Below, in pieces: positions 29,867 through 46,900 of a stretch of DNA of 64,000 bases (position 1 is its first letter; each line of letters opens with the position of its first letter). The stretch is taken from NCBI GenBank assembly GCA_034231615.1, contig CM067309.1, forward strand, positions 42,032,181 through 42,096,180, read 5' to 3'. The position numbers were made by a program, and so were the translations under genes. The notes below the pieces were generated by a model, which saw nothing but the letters and a program-made list of their open reading frames with translations, searched no databases and had not been told where the DNA came from. Source of the stretch: Meghimatium bilineatum (lineage: Eukaryota > Mollusca > Gastropoda > Stylommatophora > Philomycidae).

Positions 29867-30059
29867 AACACAGGTGACATGTGATAAGTTTCATTCTCTA
29901 TCTTACCGATTAACTCACTAGTGTCGGTAAACCGGTACATCGGCTCAACATTTCTCTGTTACCGAACCATGATTTGTCTTTTCAAATTGTCTATCAATAT
30001 TCATCAGATTCTATAGTTCTGGACAGGATAAGATGATACGGTTCTACTTTTACAAAGTT

Positions 30060-30245
30060 ACTTCTCAAACTCCTGTAGACTAACAGGATGTAGCCCACTC
30101 GATGAATTTACTGTGTAACAGTTTACAGCATGGTTGCGATATCTGATACTTTCGATGTGGCATAATTTGGCAGACTTGAGCATGATCGTTGTGTCACTTT
30201 GACATTGTGTGGTACGGGACAGCAAACTACATTCTCAACATCTCC
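30060..30245 (+). repeat. Dispersed hairpin-core repeat, copy E
   Basis: AACTCCTGTAGACTAACAGG then atgtagcccac; TCCTGT...ACAGGA can pair. Similarity to 31638 continues through GCATGGTTGCG and a late GGGACAG. Confidence 0.65.
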
Positions 30246-30740
30246 TTAGCTATATTTTTCGACATAACTGTCATGTATCAGTTGTGTGCTCAACTTTTGA
30301 GCCTTGGTTAATTACTCCCGAATGAAGGTGTACTGCCGAAAACGAATGAGTCGGGCCATTTTCGGAAATTAAACGCCAACACCATTTATTTCATTCTCTG
30401 AACTACATGCTGCTGGAAATGTAGTAGAACCATTGTCTTGTTACAGAAGACAACCAGCGGGAATTTGAGAATGAATGCGGAAGAAGAGGAAACGCGTATA
30501 TGTTAATTTCTGAGATCATGAAATATCGCAATGTTCGCAGCAGCCATATGTCAGTGATTTAAAACGTGTATGTTCTACACTTAGTTTAAGATCTTCTTGT
30601 TCCGTTCAGTACACACAATCCCGTAGAAAAGAGGGGGGATGGGTTTTTGAGTTTCCCTCGTAGCCAATCAGAACGTGACTTTTAGTACTAGGAATTTAGC
30701 TGACATATAAACCCACCAACCTCCCCTCCTTGTAGCGATT
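30246..30740. other. No gene recognised
   Basis: No coding or repeat signal beyond AT-rich patches. Confidence 0.5.
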
Positions 30741-30866
30741 TTTCACAAAAAGGAAATCACATTTTCCACAAAAAAGTAATCACATTTTTAACAAAAAGAT
30801 CACATTTCCACAAAAAAAGAAATCACATTTTTCACAAAAAGAAAATCATAATTTTCATAAAAAGGA
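30741..30866. repeat. About 24-bp unit x 5, A-rich
   Basis: TTTCACAAAAAGGAAATCAC repeated with length changes. Confidence 0.9.
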
Positions 30867-31480
30867 AGAATGAAGGAATGAAAACGCAGGAGTGCCTTTT
30901 TTAGCATCTCCCCAACCCTACTTGAGGGAAATGTACTGCCCCGGGTATACGCCTGACTTGTGTGTTTGTGAGAGTTTGAATTTGAAACTGAATTTGAAGA
31001 ATTGGGAACTATGAAAACCTATTGCTAAAGGTACAATTCATAACTACTCATCTCTTTCCAGCGAGGTAGTGAAATTGTCCTAATCACTAGAAGCACACAT
31101 AACACGCACACAAACCGATGTTTCGACCAACATACCTTTATTAAAAATACATTCACAACAAAATCTGACGAATAAGAACTGCACTATTGACATATATAAA
31201 CATAAATAACAACTTGTACTGAATATAGACTTTCTGACCTGCTAGATATCAGTTTTACAGCAGTTGAGTTCATAGTATCCAACTCTTTTGCTGATCTGTT
31301 TTCTTCAATGCGAAATCTCTATTTATTGCAATTATTTTTCTCTGGTTTTCATTTATCTTGTCCTTGGTCAAAGTCTTCCTCTCTCTTGTTCATGCATTTT
31401 ATTTTTTTGTCACAGTATTTCTCTCATGCCCATGCATATTCTCCTTAGTAAGGCTCTACCTCTCTCGTGTCCATGTATAT
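30867..31480. other. No gene; one recurrent motif
   Basis: CCGATGTTTCGACCAACATA then cctttattaaaaat (31111) resembles 15326 (AACGTTTCGGTCGAAAAGGC then ttttatcaac) and 15536, so a dispersed repeat tail is likely. Otherwise nothing was recognised. Confidence 0.45.
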
Positions 31481-31561
31481 TGACCTAGGTCTGTCTTGAC
31501 CTGGGTCTGTCTTGACCTGGGTCTGTCTTGACCTGGGTCTGTCTTGACCTGGGTCTGTCTT
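31481..31561. repeat. 16-bp unit x 5
   Basis: TGACCTGGGTCTGTCT repeated. Confidence 0.95.
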
Positions 31562-31629
31562 GTTCTTCTACCTTCTATTATAAGCACATAACTGTCATGA
31601 TTACGCTGAATTCCTTCATTTGTTTCAAC

Positions 31630-31805
31630 GTTTCAGCATCAAACTCCTGCAAGCTAGCAGGATGTAGTCCAGAGAAAGGAATTCCATATGTTATGATTTA
31701 AAGCTTGGTTGTGGTTACTGCAACGTTTGTCCAAACACATTCTACTTCAACATGGACTCTCGGTCACATTGATCGTTCTAGTGATGGGACAGACAACCAG
31801 AAACC
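31630..31805 (+). repeat. Dispersed hairpin-core repeat, copy D
   Basis: AACTCCTGCAAGCTAGCAGG then atgtagtcc; TCCTGC...GCAGGA pairs perfectly. Later AAAGCTTGGTTGTGG and TGATGGGACAGACAA align with copy E. Confidence 0.65.
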
Positions 31806-32974
31806 TCCTTATTCGCTCCCTACGATATATATGGCAAAAACATTATTGTTATTTATTTTGCTCCCTCCCAGGTCCCGGTAACGCAGACAAATTGTATTTT
31901 ATGTTTTCTGTGTTTGTTTACTTTGTTTTCAGATCCCCGTGGAACATAAGAAAGTAACCGTCGCTCTTCAACGATTTATGTTTGACCCTGTCGAGTGTTT
32001 TTTTTTCTTCATATTTATGAGAAATATTTGGAAAAATAAAAGTGTCATCTCTATATTGTGTTTGATTATTTTTTCCTAACTAATCTTGCGTCTTGTCATT
32101 CCTTCGATTGGTCCTTCTATGCCCGAACTATCAAAGGACATTTCTGGCCCGTCCTGTCATTACGTCGATATTTTAAAAAAGATATCCTGTGTAGATGTTA
32201 AATAGGCTGGTTGGTAAATTACATCCGTATTCAGCTGACATTACTTCGCCTCGCTACTTGAGTCAACACCTTTTACCGATTTCCCCAATCCAAGTCTCTC
32301 TAATACATATATATATGTATATATATGTGATTATATTGCAGATTTCCAACGTGTGTGTTCTCAAGTGAATATTACTAGGGACCGATCATTTGAGACATAC
32401 AACACACTGTGCACAAATATGTAAATTCCTAAAGAACTACAAAAATTTAATATAACTACATTCTATTTGGAATTCATACTACCAGGACTGTTAGGCCTTA
32501 TTTAACACATATATAACACATAATCAGAGGTAAGGTTATCACATCACGATATATTTCATTCCTGTCTCCGTCCTTCTTCATCGAAACCTCCCACCCACTC
32601 AACCTGCACACTACACAAACCAGGATCTACCTTTTTTTTCAATTGTATAATCTATGAAAAGCGTTACAGCTGGTTGCATAGTTAACAATACACAAATACA
32701 AAAAAAACAAATGCCATATTCCTGTCAGATATTGAGTTACATGGCAGGGTTGTAAGACCAGCGTAATCTGGATTTCTGTAGATTCATCACACAAGCTTCA
32801 TCGGTGACACAATTTTCAAACATTTAATTGTAACTTACATCTACAAACAAGCTGATGTTACTCGGAAACTGCTGGCAGTTCAAATCTGTACTGTATTAAA
32901 CGCATATGTCCAGAGATAAAGCTTATGTTACCTTCAACAAACGACTTCCATCTGATGTCAGAGATTGATTTGTG
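31806..32974. other. No gene recognised
   Basis: AT-rich DNA with a short AT run at 32306-32330. No coding signal. Confidence 0.5.
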
Positions 32975-33137
32975 AGTATTATGTTTCTGTTATGCAGTGT
33001 CAAGTATTATGTTTCTGTTATGCAGTGTCAAGTATTATGTTTTTGTTATGCAGTGTCAAGTATTATGTTTCTGTTATGCAGTGTCAAGTATTATGTTTCT
33101 GTTATGCAGTGTCAAGTATTATGTTTTTGTTATGTAG
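32975..33137. repeat. Minisatellite, 28-bp unit, about 6 copies
   Basis: AGTATTATGTTTCTGTTATG then cagtgtca, with TTTCTG/TTTTTG variants. Confidence 0.96.
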
Positions 33138-33216
33138 CGATATATCAGACTGTTTAAACATGTCTGTCTGCGGCAGGTCAGCTCGCTTAAAATCGCTAAA
33201 TGTTCAGAGAATAAAT

Positions 33217-33262
33217 AAGGAAGACCACGTTATGGAAAGAATGTCTCTTGATGATCATGTTT
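33217..33262 (+). mobile_element. LINE family-2 3' terminus, very short
   Basis: AAGGAAGACCACGTTATGGA then aagaatgtctcttgatgatc equals the 3' end at 45665-45708. Confidence 0.6.
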
Positions 33263-33319
33263 GTGTTTCATTTCCTCTGCTGCTTTATATTTCCGTATAT
33301 CATTCTCTGGCAGTGAGTG

Positions 33320-33690
33320 GTTAATTTTTGTGGTTTGGTGGTGGATGTTTGTGGTTGGGTGGACAAGAAACTGCTTTCAATAGTGAAATGACGAAAACTA
33401 GCATGGTTCGGACATGTATGCAGACATGATTCCTTGTCAAAAACAATACTGCCAGGAACCGTCGAAAGGGGTGGGGTTGGGGGGGGGGTGAGCAGAGGAA
33501 GGCAATTAAAGACAAAGACAGACAACATCACGGAAAGGACAGGACAAGATTTTTCCTCACTCCTCTGCATTATTGGAGATATAAATCGCTGGAGGACTCT
33601 GTGTGCTGAAGTATCCAATGGGGTACCCCTACGTCCCTGAATATGTGCTGAAGCATCCAATGGGGGTACCCCTACGACCCTGATGGGATT
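33320..33690 (+). mobile_element. LINE 3'-end fragment, family 5
   Basis: Reads KLLSIVK, RKLAWFGHVCRHDSLSKTIL, GTVERGGVGGGVSRGRQLKT and DNITERTGQDFSSLLCIIGD, followed by RWRTLCAEVSNGVPLRP. This is the well-known tail of a mollusc/cnidarian non-LTR ORF2 type (WFGHVxRHDSLxKTILQGT...). The first part needs a frame change. The last 42 bases of ORF2 (from GTGCTGAAGTATCCAATGGG, about 33600-33683) are tandemly duplicated. Confidence 0.85.
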
Positions 33691-33954
33691 TGGGCTTATG
33701 GGTATTGAAGGATGGATGTCTGATTTATCTAAAGTGGCAATTGCAATGGGTTTTTTTTGTTGCAATCTACAATATTTTTTTCAAACTGACGACCATTTGC
33801 ATACAGCCTTCAGTTAGTACGGTATACATTCATTTCAACTTCTTGTTTGCGGGCCACAGTATAGTTGGCTTCTAGCAGTATACGTTGTCTAGTAGGAGCC
33901 ACACATTGAACGTGTGTTGCAATAAATATTTAGTATAATTATATCGTCCAATAA

Positions 33955-34035
33955 AGATAGGGTGGTATCGATACCCAATGCATGAATAAACATTGGGTGG
34001 TATCGATACCCAATGCATAAATAAACACAGGGTGG
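33955..34035. repeat. About 35-bp unit x 2.3 with 12-bp palindrome
   Basis: Each unit contains GGTATCGATACC, a perfect palindrome, within GGGTGGTATCGATACCCAAT. Confidence 0.9.
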
Positions 34036-34119
34036 TATTAACACTGAATATTTTACTTTACAAAACGAAGTTAAGTCCAACTAAATTATAACTATATATC
34101 TCGTAAACATTCACGCATT

Positions 34120-34205
34120 TGTTCAATGAACACAACTGTTGTGCGAACATTGGTTCCTACACAATTAACACAATTGGTGCTCGAACAATGGTTCCTACAC
34201 ATTTA
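34120..34205. repeat. Imperfect duplication, about 40 bp x 2
   Basis: GAACATTGGTTCCTACACAA / GAACAATGGTTCCTACACAT. Confidence 0.8.
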
Positions 34206-34331
34206 AATACACTCCACAATATCATACAAACCATGTACCACATTGAAAAGGGTCAATGATTCCTCAGGGGAAAAAAACATATATTTAAAAAGATAAAACT
34301 TAAACTTGTGAATGACAAAGGTATATGAGCC

Positions 34332-34508
34332 AATGTGTTTGTTGTCAAATAACACTACAGAATATGTTTGTTGTCAAATAACACTACACAATGTGTTTGT
34401 TGTCAAATAACACTACACAATGTGTTTGTTGTCAAATAGCACTACACAATGTGTTTGTTGTCAAATAACACTACACAGTGTGTTTGTTATGAAATAACAC
34501 TACACAAT
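34332..34508. repeat. Minisatellite, 29-bp unit x 6, just upstream of host gene
   Basis: ATGTGTTTGTTGTCAAATAA then cactacaca. The array ends 193 bases before the start codon at 34702, so it lies in the promoter or 5' UTR zone. Confidence 0.95.
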
Positions 34509-34701
34509 GTCGAATTGTATAGGATATCTCTGGAGACATCATTCAATGCAGTCGAGGATACAATAGCTCTATTGCTCGTATTTTCTATGAATCTAAACAA
34601 ACAATCTGTTTTAGAATTGATACATGCATATCAAATATGTTACATCTTGTTACGTTTTTCTTCAGAATCCAGTAGAAACAACAGTCTGTAAATATCAGAA
34701 A

Positions 34702-34971
34702 ATGTTACGGCTGTTGCTCTGCACGACGTGGATAGCCATTGTCTTCAGTCAAGTCGCTACACCCCCAAGACGTGTTGGATTTCCTTTCATTCGAGGGCAT
34801 GTGTCAACCAAAGTTCATTTAGAAATCTTCATTGACTTGATTTGTCCAGATAGTCAAGAGGCATGGCCGAACATAAAAACTGTGGCTAATTATTACAGTC
34901 ATGAGGATGTTGCATTGACTGTCCACTTGTTTCCTCTACCATATCATCAAAATGCCTTTCATGCATCAAGG
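34702..34971 (+). CDS. Exon 1: signal peptide, CPDS motif, PYHQNAF
   Basis: Codes residues 1-90. The donor is AGG|GTAAGA, phase 0. Upstream, TTTTTCTTCAG at 34656-34666 could be an acceptor for a non-coding 5' exon. A LINE tail begins about 90 bases into the intron. Confidence 0.88.
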
Positions 34972-37900
34972 GTAAGATCGGATGTTGTTTTTTCGTAGGT
35001 ATCACAGGTAGGTTAGAATTATCGTATTCTTGTGTGTTAATGATACCCGTACATTACATAGAGAGAGAACAGATCAAGTGGTTTGGCCACTTTATGAGAA
35101 TGCATCACGAAAAGTTGCCCGTACAAGCAAGTTATATAGCCAAATGAGATCAAGGTACAAGTCCAGAGGAAGACCACAGAAAAGATGGATAGAAAACGTC
35201 AGGGACATCCTGAACAGACACGGTCATAGCATAGCCGAGGCCACACATCTGGCTTTAGAACGCAAACTCGAGCTACAATCACCCCTACGCTTAACGGCAA
35301 GAATGGATGACAAACCGGGGAAAGACCATAGACAATGATGCCCATCGCATAACATGGAATTGCCCGTTTAGAATGGTGTTTAAATGCAAGCCGCGACATT
35401 CCGTTCACGCTTTGATAATTTACATGATTAGTCAAGAAATATGTCTGCCGCCGTAAGTTGTCATCAAAACTGTCAAATATTACGTTTCCCGTTAGGATGT
35501 TGCAGGAAGGGAAATTTGTAGATGTGTGGTAAATGTTGCAGCAAGGGAAATTTGTAGATGTGTGATAAATGTTGCAGGAAGGGAAATTTGTAGATGTGTG
35601 GTAAATGTTGCAGGAAGGGAAATTTGTAGATGTGTGGTAAATGTTGCAGCAAGGGAAATTTGTAGATGTGTGATAAATGTTGCAGGAAGGGAAATTTGTA
35701 GATGTGTGGTAAATGTTGCAGGAAGGGAAATTTGTAGCTGTGTGGTAAATGCCGCATGCTCTTGCTGTCGCCACGTCATGTACAGGGTGGGGTTTTTTTT
35801 TTTATTTGCCGTAAGTAGTAACAATGAAATATGAAGATGTTCATCTCTCAAGACATAGAAACATTACCGGCCATCATGATCGTTATTGCGTTGTCATTGA
35901 CAGGGGCCGGCCATCAGGACCGTTAATGCGTTGTCATTGACAGGGGCCGGCCATCAGGACCGTTAATGCGTTGTCATTGACAGGGGCCGGCCATCAGGAC
36001 CGTTAATGCGTGTCATTGACAGGGGCCGGCCATCAGGACCGTTAATGCGTTGTCATTGACAGGTGTTTACCTAAAACAAGAGCTCGATCATGCGCCGTCG
36101 TGTATACCCTATTCAATTAAAAATATTATGACCATTTTGTGAAACGTTGCTTCGGTGGGGTGGGTGGGTAGAAGGGGGTAGTTACACACTTTTGGCTAAG
36201 AGAATATTTGAACCCCAGCCCCCCACCTTATCTAACAGCTGCTGGTCACCCTTGTAAACAAAATCAATGAATTTTCAATACATACATTTAGCGAATACAT
36301 CCATGCATCGTCACTCACATTCACCTAAAATCAGCAATCATGGTATTGATCAGCAGTAATCACACAGCATGCGTGTTTTTACGACATGGAAACTTTGAAA
36401 TAGTTATACACTTCAACTGCTGTAGATAATGGAGAGGGGAAGGTGGAGATTCAAACTTAGCACTTGAGAATATTACCTTTAATACGAGGAACTTGTGCTA
36501 GGAACTTGTGCTAGGAACTTGTACTAGGAACTTCTAATAGTAATTTGTACTAGAAACTTGTACTAGGAGCTTCTCCTAGGAACTTCTACTAATGGTAAAG
36601 CAAAATGAATTAAACTGGTTACTAAAGACACTTACCTTACCTATGAATAAAAATATATAAAAAAGTATATAAAAAACATACAATAAAACTACACAGGACA
36701 AATCTCAACGTATCGATCCAAATGGGACCTTTTTCAAGAGACAAATAACTAATAAACTCAACAAACATACACAAAATAGATGAGTGAAATTTTATCAAGT
36801 CATGTTTCTATGACGCAGAAATGGAAACGTCTAATTATAATGCTGTTTGTGAGTCTTTATGAGATTTCAAATACATCAGCATTTATCAAGAAAACCAGAC
36901 TTGCTGTGTAAACTTGTTCAACCGCGAACGAGAAGAGGAAGAAGAGGAAGAAGATAGAAGCGTATTATTATTATATATACTGTCGACGGTTAATTTACGT
37001 CATTAAATCTTATATATTTACATGCTACTTTTGTTGTACATTACCTGACATATATTTACATGCTACTTTTGTTGTACATTACCTGACTTATATATTTCTT
37101 ACAGGCTACTTTTGTTGTACAATTACCTGACTTATATATTTCTTACAGGCTACTTTTGTTGTACATTACCTGACATATATTTCTTACAAGCTACCTTTGT
37201 TGTACATTACCTGACATATATTTCTTACAAGCTACCTTTGTTGTACATTACCTGACATATATTTCTTACAGGCTACATTTGTTGTACATTACCTGACATA
37301 TATTTCTTACAGGCTACATTTGTTGTACATTACCTGACAAATGGTACAAAAACGTTTAACTGGATCGACAAAATTTTAATGGAAAAGCTTCCCGAACTCA
37401 CGGACAGAGCCTTCCATAACAAATCTAATGATGACCTCTTACAGTGAGTACTTGACCTCTTACAATGAGTACTTGACCTCTTACAGTGAGTACTTGACCT
37501 CTTACAGTGAGTACTTGACCTCTTACAGTGAGTACTTGACCTCTTACAGTGAGTACTTGACCTCTTACAGTGAGTACTTGAATCTACTTCAGGTCAACAG
37601 TTGATCAAACTGTATCTATACCAGGAGTGAGGAAAATAAGGTTCTATGTATAAACCAGGCCTGTTAAGCCATTTTTATTGCCCGAAGGTTGACCTAAATG
37701 TCATATATTCTCGGGTCACAGAGCTAATAAGATACTAGATGGAGCTTCTAAAGACTAGATAAAAGTTTTACGATCACATACCACATGGGAGTTGAATCAG
37801 GCCCGACAACACAAACTAGGTTGCCCACGATAGGCCTACAGCCATCTACCTAACTAATACCTTCTCTACGATTTTATTGTAGCGGTCACAGGATTAACCG

Positions 37901-40900
37901 ACGATTAGTTTTCTGGCTATGACGGGTCCGATTTAGACCTAGAACCTTAGTTTTCTCACCCCTGCAATAGACACATTTGATCTCTTGAAGTAATATTTTA
38001 CCGTCACAGAAAATTTCGAAAGTTGGTAACTCCTTCAATCCACCTTCTTCTTGGTTGTCCTCTGTATCTCGCTGATTCCATTTCATGCTGTATGCCCTTC
38101 TCGCTGACCAATAAGTTTTCTTTTTCAATAAGCCGAATTATTTCAGTCGCTGGTTTTCAATATATTTGGCAACAGATGTTGTTCCAACAGATCTTGTAAA
38201 CTATTTATTTTTCACATGGTCTCTTCTTCTTCAGTTTTCTGTTGTTCTTAGACATCTCATTTCACACACATTAAGCTTTCTCTTTTATCTTTAGTTAGTG
38301 TCCATGTCTGACATTGTTAACACAATGTTGGTATGAAGATTCAATTTATTATTTGAATTTTAGTTTGCAATGGAAATAGATTGTGCCTTCACTATTTAGC
38401 AAATACTGACGGCAACACCAATAGGAGGTATCTGATCCACCACTGGCTAAGTAGCTAAACACTTATGGAAAAACTATGACGCTAATTTAAAACTTGATTA
38501 CGCTTATTTTCACCTTATAGAAATACGACCAAATAAATTTATAAATATCGACCGATGTGTCTTATTCAGGTTGAGTGTTACAACGAGCAACAACAATTAA
38601 AAACCCTGTAAGAAATAAAGAGAAAGTTATTTACAACAGCATCTAGCGTTGGGCAACATGCTTTAGTTATTTATGTTGTTTTGCTGTAACCGAAGGGGTT
38701 GCCCAAAATCTACGCCAACAATTAGGAAGAGGATGGAAGGGGGGGGGTGGAAAAAGCTGGAAAAAAGTTGACGTCAACAAAACAGTTTTTATACAACAAA
38801 ACATGTGTTATTTTTGCGAAATTGTGAAACTTTGTCAAGCCTATTTTCGCCTTGTATATGCATATGGTAAGTTAGCTTGTTCTTATTGAGATTTTTGTGA
38901 AGCCAATCTTCTTCTATATGCAGGTCGAACGTCTGTTTTGAATGATCTTTTAGTCCATGATAATCTTAGGATATTTGTTTAACTCTTAATTTCAAATGTG
39001 GATATTTTCTATTCCATTGCTGATGGCATAGCCGACGTCTCACAACCATATGTTACCAACGGAAAAATCTTGTCTTGTCTTGAGATATCTATGTGTGCCG
39101 TTAGGTTTCATGTGGGGGGAGGGGGGTGTTCTATCAATTTCTAACAGTGATCTCGCTACCATAGTGCAGACTTGGTGTTCTAGTATTTCTCTGATGTCAT
39201 CTATCCATCGTCGTCTGGGTCTTCCCATGTTTATCTTTCCATGTGATCTTTTACTGAAAACTGCTAATGGATTGCGTTCTATTTCCATTCTGTTCAGGTG
39301 ACCGAACCATTTGTTGTTTTGTTTGTCTGTGTATTGTTTGCGCGATATTGTTTTCCTTCGATTTCTTATATTGTCATTCTTTATCTATCTCTTTTTCTTA
39401 CACCTATTGCTGTTCTCATTTTCTTCCTTCCGCATATTCCTTGTTTTTGTTATATTTCTCTGTCACTTTCCAGATCTGTCTTCACACTTATTCTTTGAAC
39501 TTCACAAGAGGTAAATTATAGATCCATAATAATTGTATTTTAATATTCTATGTTTTCCTTGTCATATATTTCTGAGCTGTGATTTTTTTAAGAGCCATTT
39601 TTAATCTCTTTCTAATCTCTGCTAAGCAATCTCCGGTAATGTGAAGTATTATAACACATATTCAAAGTTAGTTGACAGTTTAAGTGTTGCTTGTTTTGTG
39701 AAATATAGGAGTAGATTTCTGTTGATTAAGCATTATTTGTGTTTTCTCTGCATTCAAGAAATCATATTGAGTCTTGTTATGGTGGTTGAATGTGATGTGT
39801 AAATATGATGTTTAACTATAATGTTTACCTATGATGTTACCTATGATGTTTACCTTTGATGTTACCTATGAATCATCTAAGATGATTAAATTATGATGTT
39901 TACTCATGATGTTTAACTATGATGTTTATCTATGATGTTTTTGTGGTGTGGTCATTTCGACGCGTCGTCTTTTGATGTAATTTGAGTATCTTGGTGAAAG
40001 CCTTTTAGTTCGACACGTGCATGATTTCCTGTATATTGTTATTTTTATGAATATATCATGTGTTGTGTTGTGTGTTATTTCACATGAGCAGTCGACAGTG
40101 ATAGTGTGTTAGTCGTCGTTTACTAACGCTTTATTACCTGTTTCCCACGTGAGTACTACTTTCATAGAGTTTTAGTGGCAGAATTACCTTTTATTGTTAC
40201 AGCTGACGGGAATTGAACCAGGTCTGTTCTAGCAACACCGAATCGCTTTGCAGCACAAGTAAACAGGTTTTCCGTACTTGACCAACCACATCCCAAAAAA
40301 AAAGATATGGCGCGGTCAAGACTCTCAGCCTGTGTACTCAGGTCACTGAGAACAGACCAATAGAAACAAGGACTATTGCAACAACAACGAATATCCCGTA
40401 AAAGTATTAAAGTATCCTCAGGAACACAAACACAGAACATGCATATTCGTACACTAGGACCTTTACCTTTACAATTACCTTTTATTGATTGATGTTTACC
40501 TATGATGTTTACCTATGATGTTTACCTATGATGTTTACCTATGATGTGTAAATTATGATGTTTAAACTATGATATTTAACCATGATGTGTGGCTTACATG
40601 AGTTAAAACCTGTGAGACTGCTTGATATTACCACATGATCCTGTGCATACCTAATTTGATGAATTGTATACTCAAAACGGTATTTGATCTCTTTCTGTTT
40701 TAGGCTGTTTGCAAGTTACGTCTCAGATATGGGTGTTGATGTGACACGTTTCCTGGAGCTGACGGACCCTAGGGTAACCAGAGACTTTGAGGTGCTAGCT
40801 AGAGTCATGTGGAAGCACGCATGTGTTCGTAAGTGTCCGCGTCTTGTACATGTGGAAGCACGCCTGTGTTCGTTAAGTGTCCGCATCTTGTACATGTGGA

Positions 40901-43900
40901 AACACGCCTGTGTTCGTAAGTGTCCGCATCTTGTACATTAGAATCTGGTATGTGTAACCCGCTTATAGAACAGAATGTATGACATTGATATGCGTATATA
41001 TAGAATAACATGGGGAGTATTAGTAACAACAAACAAAGAGGCTTTAACAACTGTGCGTATGCAAAAAATAACAATTAAGGGAAATTATAATGACATAATC
41101 TCTTTAGCTGTGAGCAATCAGCACTTGACACATGATGATGATGTAATAATCCCTCAAGCTGTGAGCAGGTAGCTCTTGACACATGATGATGATTAAATAA
41201 TCCCTTTAGCTGTGAGCAGATAGCTTTTCACATCAGATAGCATTTATAACAAAATCACAGGTAAAATACGGAACTATGTGTACCCCCGTATTTGATTATT
41301 TCCATTGCCTATGTTCATCAGACATAGGAAATTTATTTATAAATTTAAACATTTAACTTATTTAGGGTTAGGTTTAGGGTTAGGGTTATTGCATTTTTGG
41401 GAGAGTTATGAGTTACATAAGTAATCCTAACACTAAATAAAATAATATTAAAATTTATAATATGATTTCGATTTCTGATGCTCAATACACAGTCAACGAT
41501 ACACAATACACAGTCAACGATACACAATACACAGTCAACGATACACAATACACATTCAACTATGTTCAATACACAGTTAACGATGTTCAATACACAGTCA
41601 ACGATGTTCAATACACAGTCAACGATGTTCAATACACAGTCAACGAAGTACAATACACAGTCAACGATACACAATACACAGTCAACGATACACAATACAC
41701 AGTCAACGATACACAATACACAGTCAACGATACACAATACACAGCCGACTTCAACCAATAATAATTATTCCTAACTATAAAATAATTAAAACACAAAGTG
41801 CACACAATAAAATCTCTGCTATTTATTATCCCAACTTACCTAAACAACCATATCCATTTCTGAATTACTATCAACAATGGAGAATTAGAAAAAATCACCA
41901 GTTTTGAATACCTTGGTTCTCTTGTCAGCAGTAAAGGTGATTGCTATGAAGAAGTCAGAAGGAAGTTGGCTATCGCGACAAAAGAGCTGATACAAATGAA
42001 AAACATATGGCTGAGCTGCTGCAAAACAACAAAACTAACTCTCCCAAGAACTTGCATATTTTCAGTGGCAATATATCGGTGTGAATTCTGGACAAATCAA
42101 CAACGAAATGAAAAATAAAATAGCAACATTTGAAACAAAATGTTACAGAAAAATCCTCAGAATACCATAGACGATAAAAAATCACAAATGTAGCCATCCT
42201 GAGAGAAATGAATGTAAAAGAAAATTGGCTAAACAACATGGTTCTTTCCAGAAAACTACAATATTTTGGCCATATTAAATACCATGACGGCCTAGAGAAA
42301 CCATAATGAGGGGATGATGTTATGGGGAGGAACAAGTGGCAGACCAAAAAGAAGATGGACGCAAGACATCAAAGACAGCTTGAACATGACGGTAACAGAA
42401 GCAGGCAGACTGGCTAAAGATAGAACGACGTTTCGAAAGCTTGTAACGACTGCTACATCCTGTTCAGTATAAGCTACCTGATGATGATAGGCCAACTTTA
42501 ATTTACTTAGTTTATGCATTTACATTTTCTTCTGATTTTCATTGGTTGTCGAGGCAAAATTTATACAGATTGACCAATGAAAATGACAGGAAAAGTTAAT
42601 TGTATCACTTTAAAAAGTTGATTCCACGATGAACCAGTAGGATTGTATAATTGACGAAAGCCTCCATCTACAATTTTGTCTGTTGTTGTCTAACAATGTG
42701 GTTATAGTAAGATTTCTTGCAGTTTCAATGTATCAGTTTTTGTATGTTGGTCCTTACGTTGACTTCCATATTCCGTCTACGTTTCTTGTGTCTACAACAG
42801 GGGGTATAGCTGAGACCCCAGCTTACATGATTAATGGAATTATCCAGCCAAATATCCAGCAGAGCTGGCAACTGTCCGACTGGAAAAGATACCTTGACCC
42901 GCTACTTAATACTCAGGTTTTTGATAGCATCGATTATGCTGCGGTGAATCAACCATCAGAACAGGTACGTACGTGTTTTGTTGATTCGTATTCTTCTTCT
43001 TCAGCTTTCATTCTCAAACTCTCGTTGGATATCCCTTGTAACAGGACAATGGTCCTACTAGATTTCCAGCAATATGTAGATCAGAGAATAGAAATACGTT
43101 GTGTCGCCGTTTTATTTGCACCAGTGGCCCGACACATCCATCTTCGGTAGGGATCCATAGTATGTTACATTATATTTTTTATTAAACGGGCTTCTCCATA
43201 AAGAGATATATTCTATGCAATAGAATCATATCAATGTGTATTGATGATCCGGTGCTAGATTGTTATATCCGGTATAATTCTGTGTGATGTTTTCAAGTGT
43301 ACATTTACATTATTTTTAAATATCAAATTAACTGGAAGATACTGAGATGTGATGTTCTGTTTTTTTTTAAAAAGACCGATACAAACTCAACAAACAATTA
43401 AGAGAGTTAATTGTGACGTTATCAGAAATGGTGGAGTAAAATGACAAATTATGCCCCCAAAAATAGGAGCAATGAAGATTTATGTAGCGGTGGAATCTCT
43501 CTACAAGTTACCCACAACGTGCGCATCCACAACTTGTATCCCTACAAGTTACCCACAACGTGCGCATCCACAACTTGTATCCCTACAAGTTACCCACAAC
43601 GTGCGCATCCACAACTTGTATCCCTACAAGTTACCCAGAACGTGCGCATCCACAACGTGTATCCCTACAAGTCACCGATCACAAAGAACTCGGTTGATGA
43701 CTAAACCTTGAATAAGATATTCTGCCATCAACATATTATAACTCTGTGATCACAAGTAATTAGAAGTAGACACAGATAAGAGACACACATAGTCGGCTTA
43801 TATCGTGAATGTACTTGCAATTAGAAGTAGACACAGATAAGAGAACTAATTAGTCGGCTTATATCGTGAATGTACTTGCAATTAGAAGTAGACACAGATA

Positions 43901-46900
43901 AGAGAAATAATTAGTCGGCTTATATCGTGAATGTACAAGCAATTAGAAGTAGACACAGATAAGAGAAATAAATAGTCGGCTTATATCGTGAAGTACTTGC
44001 AATTAGAAGTAGACACAGACACACAGAAGTGCCATGTCGAGTGAGGTAGGCAACCATGTTTCTCCACAACTCTCTGTCTCTTGTGTTGAAAATAAGTTCA
44101 GATGGTGACTTAATTTTGTGCCACAGTGACAACCCATCCAGAAATTTCTCTCTTTGTCTTCCTTTGACTCTTCTCCCCTTGATCTTTCCGGTGATCACTA
44201 AATATTCAATGTTTATTTTTATCATGACATGATCTAAATATCGTGATTGTCTTTTTCTAATTTTCGCTATAATTAGTCATTTTACTCCAGAATCTCTGAG
44301 GACTTATACATTACATTTCATGGCTATCCGTTGAAAACCACATGTCAGTTGCCTCCAGTTTAACTTGTGTCCATGCTACGCAATAAAACAAAAAATAATT
44401 CGTTCAATATAACATTGGAATTTGTGCATCTGATGCTATATTTAGTTAAACCATATGAATATATACTTTTTTTTGGTCCATCATGCCTAGTTTTTATAAA
44501 CGAAGGACAACTTTTGATATTTGTCGCATTTCTAATTATTATGCATCAAGAACATAATTTTTACTACTTCAGCTATAAACACCGTCTTGTGTTCAAGAGA
44601 ACAAATTAGTGCAGTTTCACGCTAAAATCGCACCAATTGTATGATGAACTATTCATGTGTAAATGAGTTTATGTAATTGAAAGTAAACATCTTTGAAAAT
44701 GTGCCTGAGTTGTGAGTTGAGAAGTAAACTTTTAATATGCATCGCACATAATCGATAATGGGAACAAATGAGTGCATTTTACTGAAATATATAATTCATA
44801 TGGTCTCTACAATTTCAAATTGCTACAAAAAAAATTCCAATTATATGCGTTATATATATCTGCTGAAGGACATAGTTTTGAGGTTGGGCAAGGCTAGTGG
44901 AACATAGAGGAATGACGAGATTACAGGAATTGTTGGAAAAACGTCTGTGGTCAATTTAACATTGTAATTTAGCAATGCAATTTTAGCAGTGTAATTAAAC
45001 AATGTAATTAAACAATGTATTTTTAACAGTGTAATTTAACAATGTAGTATTTTAGCAGTGTAAATAAACAATGTAATTTAGCAATGTATTTTAATTATAT
45101 AATTTTAACAATGCAGTTTTAACAATGTAATTTTAACGATGTAGTTTAACGGTGTAGTGTAGTTTAACCATGTAATTTTAACAATGTAATTTTAACCATG
45201 TAATTTTAACAATGTAATCTTAACAATGCTGAAATAAAACTCACTATTCTCTGTGCCACGCCCCTGGTATACAGTAAGTAACAAACGGATTGTGTCCAGA
45301 TAACACAGATTTATTTCTTGTTGCACATATCGGCATGTCACACAACCTGGTCACATTCATTATTGATTGCTTTATTTTATTACCTTCGGAGTTATTTTAT
45401 CTTTAAATTCATGTTTAATTTTTGTATTAGTTGCCGGTTGCTTCAAACAGTGTCTAGCCAAATTTTTATCCAAAAAAAAATAATTAAAAAAAAAACAATC
45501 CCAAAAGGGCCAAATTTCCAAATTGTGTACAATTGCTAACAAAATTCAGAATTTTCGATAATTTCTAAACTTCTATAAATGTGTATTACATATCTGGATT
45601 ATAAATATTTACGAAAAGAGGCGAGACAACTTGCTCAAGACCGCGGAGAATTTATGATATCCTTAGGGAAGACTACGTTCTGGAAAGAATATGTCACCTG
45701 ATGATGCTGAAGATCCTCATAAAGTTGTGAAAGATGAATATATACTTATTTTTACTTTATTTGTATTTACCTCTTATTTGTCAGGTTACTGCGGCACTTC
45801 CATTGTGTCGGACATCCTCCGATATTTTGGTTATTTATATGTGAAAGAAGCACAGTAACAGAAGCACTGGACAAGAAAATAAAGTCATTTGAAACAAAAT
45901 GTCTCATAAAACTCGTAAATATTAGCTGCGAAGTATGTAAATTAAACAAGCAAATAAGAGACGACAGCAAGAAGGAATATGTTTCTACAATAATATAATT
46001 GCGCATGCGGTTGTGTCTGTGGGTCTCACCAATGGCTCACTAAACAAACCACCCATGCAACAACAAAAAAAACCTTAGTAGATGACATGCAGCTATGTTG
46101 TTCCGGCATGATGACGTTGTGCTTGAACTAGTTACAGTCACGGCGTGGGTGTGTGAAACAACAAAGAAACCTGTCGCAAGGGCCAGAGTTGTGCCCTGAT
46201 GTCGACGTCTGTGTCAGTGGCATTAGACTCGAAGCACCATCGAGTCGGATGGCTGCTGGAACAGAGAGCGGAGCGGTTATGGGAATGCCCCACGTGCTGT
46301 GAGGCCAGTTTTCTAATCAAGAATCAAGAATAATATGAAGAATACGATGCATTTATATCCGACTTTTACATATAAAGTAAGTAGAAAGTCAACAGCATCT
46401 AAATTGCTACCAGATGGTTAAACAAAAAGAGAAGACAAACAACAAAACTCATCATAGAACCGTGATCAAAGAGTGTATGCCTAAGTGTCTCAAAACATGC
46501 AAGAATTACACAGAGTAGCATCACATCGTTCGAACTGCAGAAACACTGGCTTCTGCCCTGTGCACCGTATTCAGGACTGAGGCAACATACATGGACATCT
46601 TAGACAGATAGATATATCGATAGATATTCATATAATAAATATAGGCAGACAGACACAGACAGACAGACAGACGGACTGACAGATGAAATACATAATTTTG
46701 TCAGCGATGTCAGTCAGAAAGTTTAAGACATTTTCTTTTTACTTTTTTTTCTCTGATATCCGTTTTTGCATATTTCTTAATCCCTGATGTGTAATTGATA
46801 AAGGCTACCATTTAATTGTAAAACTATTGTCCAAACGTCACATTTTATAAATGCTGAAATCAAAACTAAATTTGGATGCCTATGTGAATACTTTGTCAAT

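Follow-up and report, generated by a model that had tools for sequence, protein, structure and literature searches.

The second exon of a thioredoxin-fold gene in the mollusc Meghimatium bilineatum is preceded by a tandem array built from its own acceptor and its own first bases. We consider it likely, with a probability of about 0.83, that this array is a 'mirage' that arose from ordinary minisatellite turnover and not from any attraction exerted by splice sites, and that it persists because the exon is intact and the copies sit on its intron side. Through slippage or unequal exchange, a minisatellite would have expanded over the junction of intron and exon, leaving tandem copies of the true acceptor and exon start inside the intron, in a genome that makes minisatellites densely in many places without splice sites drawing them. 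Ordinary turnover would explain the array because sampled splice junctions are no richer in repeats than points within introns. The gene lies in a stretch of 64,000 nucleotides, here called the window (C12:42032181-42096180), of an assembly of 1.61 Gb in 32 contigs, and its features are collected in Table 1.

Table 1. Exons, first intron and boundary arrays of the thioredoxin-fold gene (window positions; a slash marks the splice junction)
Feature	Position	Strand	Remarks
Exon 1, coding part	34702..34971	+	Donor GTAAGA at 34972, junction without array; called from open spliced translation, Pfam and paralogs
Intron 1	34972..37312	+	Absent from both paralogs; 37% in local repeats
Candidate mirage, acceptor side of exon 2	37011..37312	+	Seven intronic copies of about 41 bp 5' of the true acceptor, three with ACAG/G; called from Tandem Repeats Finder, unit listing and shuffles
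Exon 2 (131 nt)	37313..37443	+	First 27 nt are the eighth acceptor copy, last 12 nt the first donor unit
Candidate mirage, donor side of exon 2	37432..37581	+	21 bp x 7, TGACCTCTTACA/GTGAGTACT; true donor 37444
Exon 3 (125 nt)	40704..40828	+	In-frame continuation of the spliced translation
Candidate mirage, donor side of exon 3	40806..40938	+	43 bp x 3; true donor GTAAGT 40829, intact decoy 40916, middle copy with an extra T
Exon 4, at least	42801..42964	+	Followed by GTACGT; acceptor and putative donor without array

The acceptor array of exon 2

Tandem Repeats Finder reported a period of 41 at 37011-37339, with 8.0 copies, 94% matches and a score of 522; when the stretch was shuffled with its dinucleotides preserved, an array of any kind appeared in 7 of 200 shuffles and the top score was 76. 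The repeat unit of about 41 bp consists of 14 bp from the acceptor followed by 27 bp from the start of exon 2, and the exon-homologous part starts at 37024, 37062, 37105, 37149, 37190, 37231, 37272 and 37313, giving spacings of 38, 43, 44, 41, 41, 41 and 41. The initial annotation had proposed eight tandem copies of the acceptor and exon 2 start, and the repeat finder and the unit listing bear this out almost to the base; the listing agrees as well with its claim that the exon's own start and acceptor supplied the unit. The states of the acceptors are exactly those it had described: ACAG/GCTAC is present in four of the eight copies (37105, 37149, 37272 and 37313), two copies read ACAA/GCTAC with the AG displaced by one base (37190 and 37231), and the two outermost read ACAT and have no AG (37024 and 37062).

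Copies 7 and 8 are identical across the 42 bases compared, as are copies 5 and 6, while copies 3 and 4 show two aligned differences and copies 1 and 2 show four. Most distant from the true copy are copies 1 and 2, with 9 and 11 differences, values inflated by a small deletion at which the alignment opened no gap. Sequence distance between copies grows with physical distance (Mantel p 0.02, 4000 permutations), and the overall pattern is compatible with stepwise growth in which the older copies would have decayed at the outer end. It also bears on whether the array is an artefact of assembly, to which tandem repeats are prone: the copies carry ordered, distinct variants at uneven spacings and similar arrays exist at unrelated loci, which makes an artefact the least probable of the explanations considered here.

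A genome search with 37024-37443 returned its own locus at 100% and four other places at 68-70%. The three inspected (L002, L003 and L004) are A+T-rich arrays of different units, and L005 overlaps L004. This search, which skips very common words and so leaves uniqueness unproven, revealed the unit nowhere else in the genome. A dispersed element or introner was considered and is unsupported, as the genome search found no further copy of the unit.

Origin of the repeated exon sequence

Splicing the four exons yields an open frame of 230 residues, in which the three introns fall at residues 90, 133 and 175. Residues 30-207 of the resulting protein matched Pfam Thioredoxin_4 (E 2.9e-5; 24.8 bits, barely exceeding the cut-off of 23.2). 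Further matches were to Pfam DSBA, below its cut-off, and to a single solved structure, the putative protein-disulfide isomerase 3gn3 (E 3.4e-4). When the genome was searched with Thioredoxin_4, three matches were obtained at E <= 1, none of them above the cut-off, and two correspond to diverged paralogs at C12:1047728-1050603 and C12:1060367-1061717 (first exons in L104 and L105). They lie 41 Mb from the window gene, and their best exons are 34% and 32% identical to it.

In both paralogs the region of exons 1 and 2 together with part of exon 3 forms a single open exon. The exon 1-exon 2 junction of the window gene, SR/ATFVV, aligns gap-free to SKAAHVI and SKAALVL in the paralogs, with the first gap five residues later. 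The start of exon 2 at 37313, on which the initial annotation relied, is backed as far as homology can by both uninterrupted paralogs and by the Pfam and PDB matches of the spliced protein. This gap-free alignment inside one open exon in both paralogs marks the exon-derived portion of the unit as old coding sequence, so that the copies passed from exon to intron and not in the reverse direction. A counterpart of intron 3 is also missing from the paralogs, judged from unbroken protein matches at residues 161-215 and 144-219, the latter containing a single internal stop. The paralogs seem to have no intron position in common with the window gene, three introns being confined to the window gene and one to the paralogs.

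Donor-side arrays of the same gene

The donors of exons 2 and 3 are amplified too, and both arrays were overlooked by the initial annotation; the acceptor array is not an isolated case. The 21-bp unit at exon 2 consists of the last 12 exon bases and 9 intron bases, and GTGAGT is found in six of the seven copies (the true donor and five further ones), the second copy reading ATGAGT. Seven junctions were examined, the six internal ones plus the putative donor of exon 4. Three of them bear boundary arrays, and no junction repeat was seen at the exon 1 donor, the exon 3 acceptor, the exon 4 acceptor or the putative exon 4 donor. In both donor arrays, and these are two cases only, the copy adjoining the true donor is damaged (ATGAGT at 37465, GTTAAGT at 40873) and the farther copies are intact.

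Splice-site choice among near-identical sites

The other three acceptors that are intact precede the true one by 208, 164 and 41 nt. Since none of these offsets is a multiple of 3, each extra acceptor shifts the frame, as the initial annotation had anticipated, and each leads to a stop within 22 codons past the junction. Its related point, that the true acceptor has near-identical competitors, holds as well: 37272 and 37313, which are 41 nt apart, are identical from -35 to +27, and use of the competitor breaks the frame. Near sequence therefore cannot decide the choice between these two sites; position would have to. Combining the four intact acceptors with the six intact donors of exon 2, we found an open frame in 1 of 24 combinations, 37313 with 37444, the extra donors bringing an immediate TGA. 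In this respect they differ from the minisatellite of the human interferon-induced gene 6-16, which Turri et al. reportedly described in 1995 as containing multiple splice donors and whose sites, by the title, serve the transcript, whereas the extra exon 2 donors in the window close the frame.

We infer that the innermost acceptor and the innermost donor of exon 2 are the pair used and that they win by exon definition. Transcripts in which exon 2 is built with other intact copies would carry a premature stop and would probably be removed by nonsense-mediated decay, which may serve as a backup. The array also offers a clean natural test of splice-site choice, in which first-come selection predicts use of the upstream of two identical acceptors 41 nt apart and exon definition predicts use of the inner one.

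The same observations could be read as a regulatory role, with upstream acceptors and downstream donors yielding poison isoforms so that output is tuned via nonsense-mediated decay. Such a role would be in keeping with the early stops in 23 of the 24 pairings of intact exon 2 acceptors and donors, and with the identity of the decoy at 37272 to the true site from -35 to +27; however, stops are expected anyway in the shifted frames of A+T-rich sequence, and the loss or displacement of the AG in four of the seven extra copies is equally explained by decay of the sequence. We regard a regulatory role as improbable.

At exon 3 the distal donor, 40916, leaves the frame open and adds 29 codons (259 residues versus 230), and decay would be unable to remove this product because of the open frame. 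This donor is the observation in favour of a function in which some copies serve as alternative sites that generate protein variants, but every one of the 23 decoy combinations of intact sites at exon 2 closes the frame, and a contribution of this kind seems to us very improbable.

The motif CTGAC, which we take to be branch-point-like, occurs at about -17 of both 37272 and 37313, where it is contributed by the exon part of the preceding copy. It is found 14 to 19 nt upstream in seven of the eight sites, the outermost excepted, because CCTGAC and one further base close the exon part of each unit, and these copies may act as branch points. Masking of the decoys by RNA structure was rejected, as the array with its exon folds no better than shuffled sequence (z +1.1; folding was equal or better in 88 of 100 shuffles).

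Junction repeats in a survey of exons

Arrays of period >= 10 occupy 25.0% of the window and 19.9% of 20 random 10-kb samples combined, the samples ranging from 0.6% to wholly satellite; local repeats make up 21% of positions 30001-46000, around the gene. The load is very uneven, with 67 merged arrays in the 64-kb window versus 93 in the 200 kb of random samples (L006-L025), one of which (L019, C14:20.00 Mb) is entirely satellite.

Whether splice junctions are hot spots for such repeats was assessed on 79 exon matches, comprising 47 of 51 in chaperonin genes and 32 of 67 in myosin genes. Four chaperonin matches were omitted, which belong to three long copies, seemingly without introns, on C24, C25 and C11, and some of the 47 used have internal stops; 35 myosin matches were omitted, some with stops and others lacking letters, and all 32 used are without internal stops. 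To place the junctions we used a simple splice-site score close to the ends of each match, which may have misplaced some, and first and last exons were kept. Two donors and 11 acceptors were left uncalled, and 77 donors and 68 acceptors were tested by taking the 14-base word across the junction and seeking it again on the intron side with at most two mismatches. Control words were taken 50, 80 and 110 bp into the intron.

Among donors, the junction word was repeated in 3 of 77, compared with 23 of 231 control words; for acceptors the figures were 0 of 68 and 4 of 204. At five stringencies the junction counts were always 3 and 0, and the controls gave 18-23 of 231 and 0-4 of 204. Comparison of junctions with controls gave p 0.05 combined, 0.15 for donors and 0.57 for acceptors; the events are few, and a modest excess or deficit at junctions is therefore still possible. 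Local-repeat coverage near the sampled exons was sparser than around the window gene, at 0-6.5% by distance bin for the chaperonins, with no peak at the exon edges, and 9.1% for the myosins. The idea of junctions as minisatellite hot spots therefore found no support, the sampled junctions being, on few events, at or below the intron background. The suggestion in the initial annotation that an acceptor had seeded the minisatellite finds no echo here either, as local repeats are no commoner at the called junctions than at points a short way into the introns.

Acceptors seem to carry arrays less often than donors, as would be expected if upstream copies compete harder, but 3 of 77 and 0 of 68 do not differ significantly (p 0.25). 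The window gene, with arrays at 3 of 7 junctions, exceeds the 3 of 145 in the sample (Fisher p 0.001), a comparison coloured by the selection of this gene for its array and by its array-dense surroundings.

The three junction-spanning repeats among the 79 sampled exons are all at donors, are clear on inspection and likewise speak against an isolated case. A chaperonin gene (L067, C1:10771846-10773201) contains a donor mirage of 62 bp x 4, with about 41 exon bases per unit and GAG/GTATGT in all four copies. In a myosin gene (L077, C1:3050017-3050584) the units are a mixture of 35 and 43 bases, and TTAGAAAAG/GTAATC occurs five times including the true donor; some of these units also carry AAAAACAG, an acceptor-like stretch. 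The third, L099, is a donor-spanning repeat with two copies of 14 bp. Two further loci were excluded from the spanning count, a borderline one in which the array begins at the donor (L094) and one in which a partly donor-like array lies 25 bp beyond it (L032). A candidate at L070 was also excluded, since the match had overrun the real donor.

Relation to known mirages and to intron gain

Arrays of this type are not as rarely reported as the initial annotation supposed. In amphioxus, the accessible parts of two papers describe 'mirages', minisatellite-like tandem copies of exon-intron boundaries with 5' or 3' splice sites in otherwise normal genes, and report length instability together with normal splicing (PMC3087553, PMC3902484). 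The genes concerned in those parts are Adh3, TnC and the globins BflGb6 and BflGb9, with PGBD5 likened to mirages (PMC3087553, PMC3902484); PGBD5 was added in the second of these papers, where Adh and TnC are cited (PMC3902484).

We file the window array as a mirage in another phylum on three structural features, each read from the sequence of one assembly. The tandem units are of minisatellite size (41 bp x 8, 21 bp x 7 and 43 bp x 3); the unit spans the boundary, with 14 bp of intron and 27 bp of exon, the exon part being homologous to paralog coding sequence; and many but not all copies bear splice signals (ACAG/G in four of eight acceptors, GTGAGT in six of seven donors). Compared with what those parts describe, the window is alike in its boundary-spanning tandem copies, many but not all of them with splice signals, and differs in that the host is a mollusc and that a single small gene has three arrays, of which two flank the same exon. 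If this assignment is right, boundary minisatellites would be extended from lancelets to a mollusc.

Elsewhere, human segmentally duplicated genes contain internal tandem repeats, on average 30-bp units repeated four times, some of which lie at exon-intron boundaries (PMC2812944, in part). There the repeats belong to recent paralogs and are tied to new or alternative introns, whereas here the gene is diverged and lies in a repeat-rich genome. One published case of a new intron resembles the window in that a tandem duplication runs across the end of an intron into the exon that follows, the new intron being found only there. No molluscan boundary minisatellite was found in the literature searched, whose coverage omits most subscription journals. 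An abalone kinase gene has a 27-bp minisatellite in intron 3, not described as boundary-spanning in the part of the paper available (PMC6905558), and the available part of a study of amphioxus huntingtin mentions tandem repeats in introns and no boundary arrays (PMC2206037). For Drosophila, decay has been argued, in the portion seen, to shelter weakly spliced new introns (PMC2809761).

The three introns of the gene might themselves be gains by mirage-type tandem duplication, the arrays being their scars, a proposal that is compatible with our preferred reading. It is encouraged by the lack of introns 1 and 2 in the two paralogs, and of intron 3 by the unbroken protein matches, and by the presence of an array at one end of each of the three introns; a model of this kind was proposed for the amphioxus globins (PMC3087553, in part) and a related case is given for potato (PMC4974935, in part). 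The paralogs, however, are 32-34% identical to the window gene and have an apparent intron of their own that it lacks, so that loss in the paralogs is equally possible. That the arrayed introns are those without a paralog counterpart provides no independent test, because these are all the known introns of the gene. Resemblance between intron ends was weighed as a sign of gain and proved weak and confined to intron 2: the ends of introns 1 and 3 are unlike (247 and 185 of 300 shuffles were as good), and those of intron 2 match at 12 of 14 positions, with 14 of 300 shuffles as good, this being one of three tests, and scores like it in 12 of 796 window tiles. Intron gain is on balance improbable; if it were true, intron birth by boundary minisatellites would have been caught near the event, in a phylum for which no such report was found.

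Other features

The open frame at 51499-52056 on the minus strand, probably from a retrotransposon, encodes an RNase H domain (PF00075, E 3.8e-8), which was the one Pfam match when ten other open frames of the window were also compared. Matches to the haemocyanin domain PF14830, a marker of molluscs, number 50 and form two clusters, at C15:48.69-49.24 Mb and C22:44.15-44.27 Mb.
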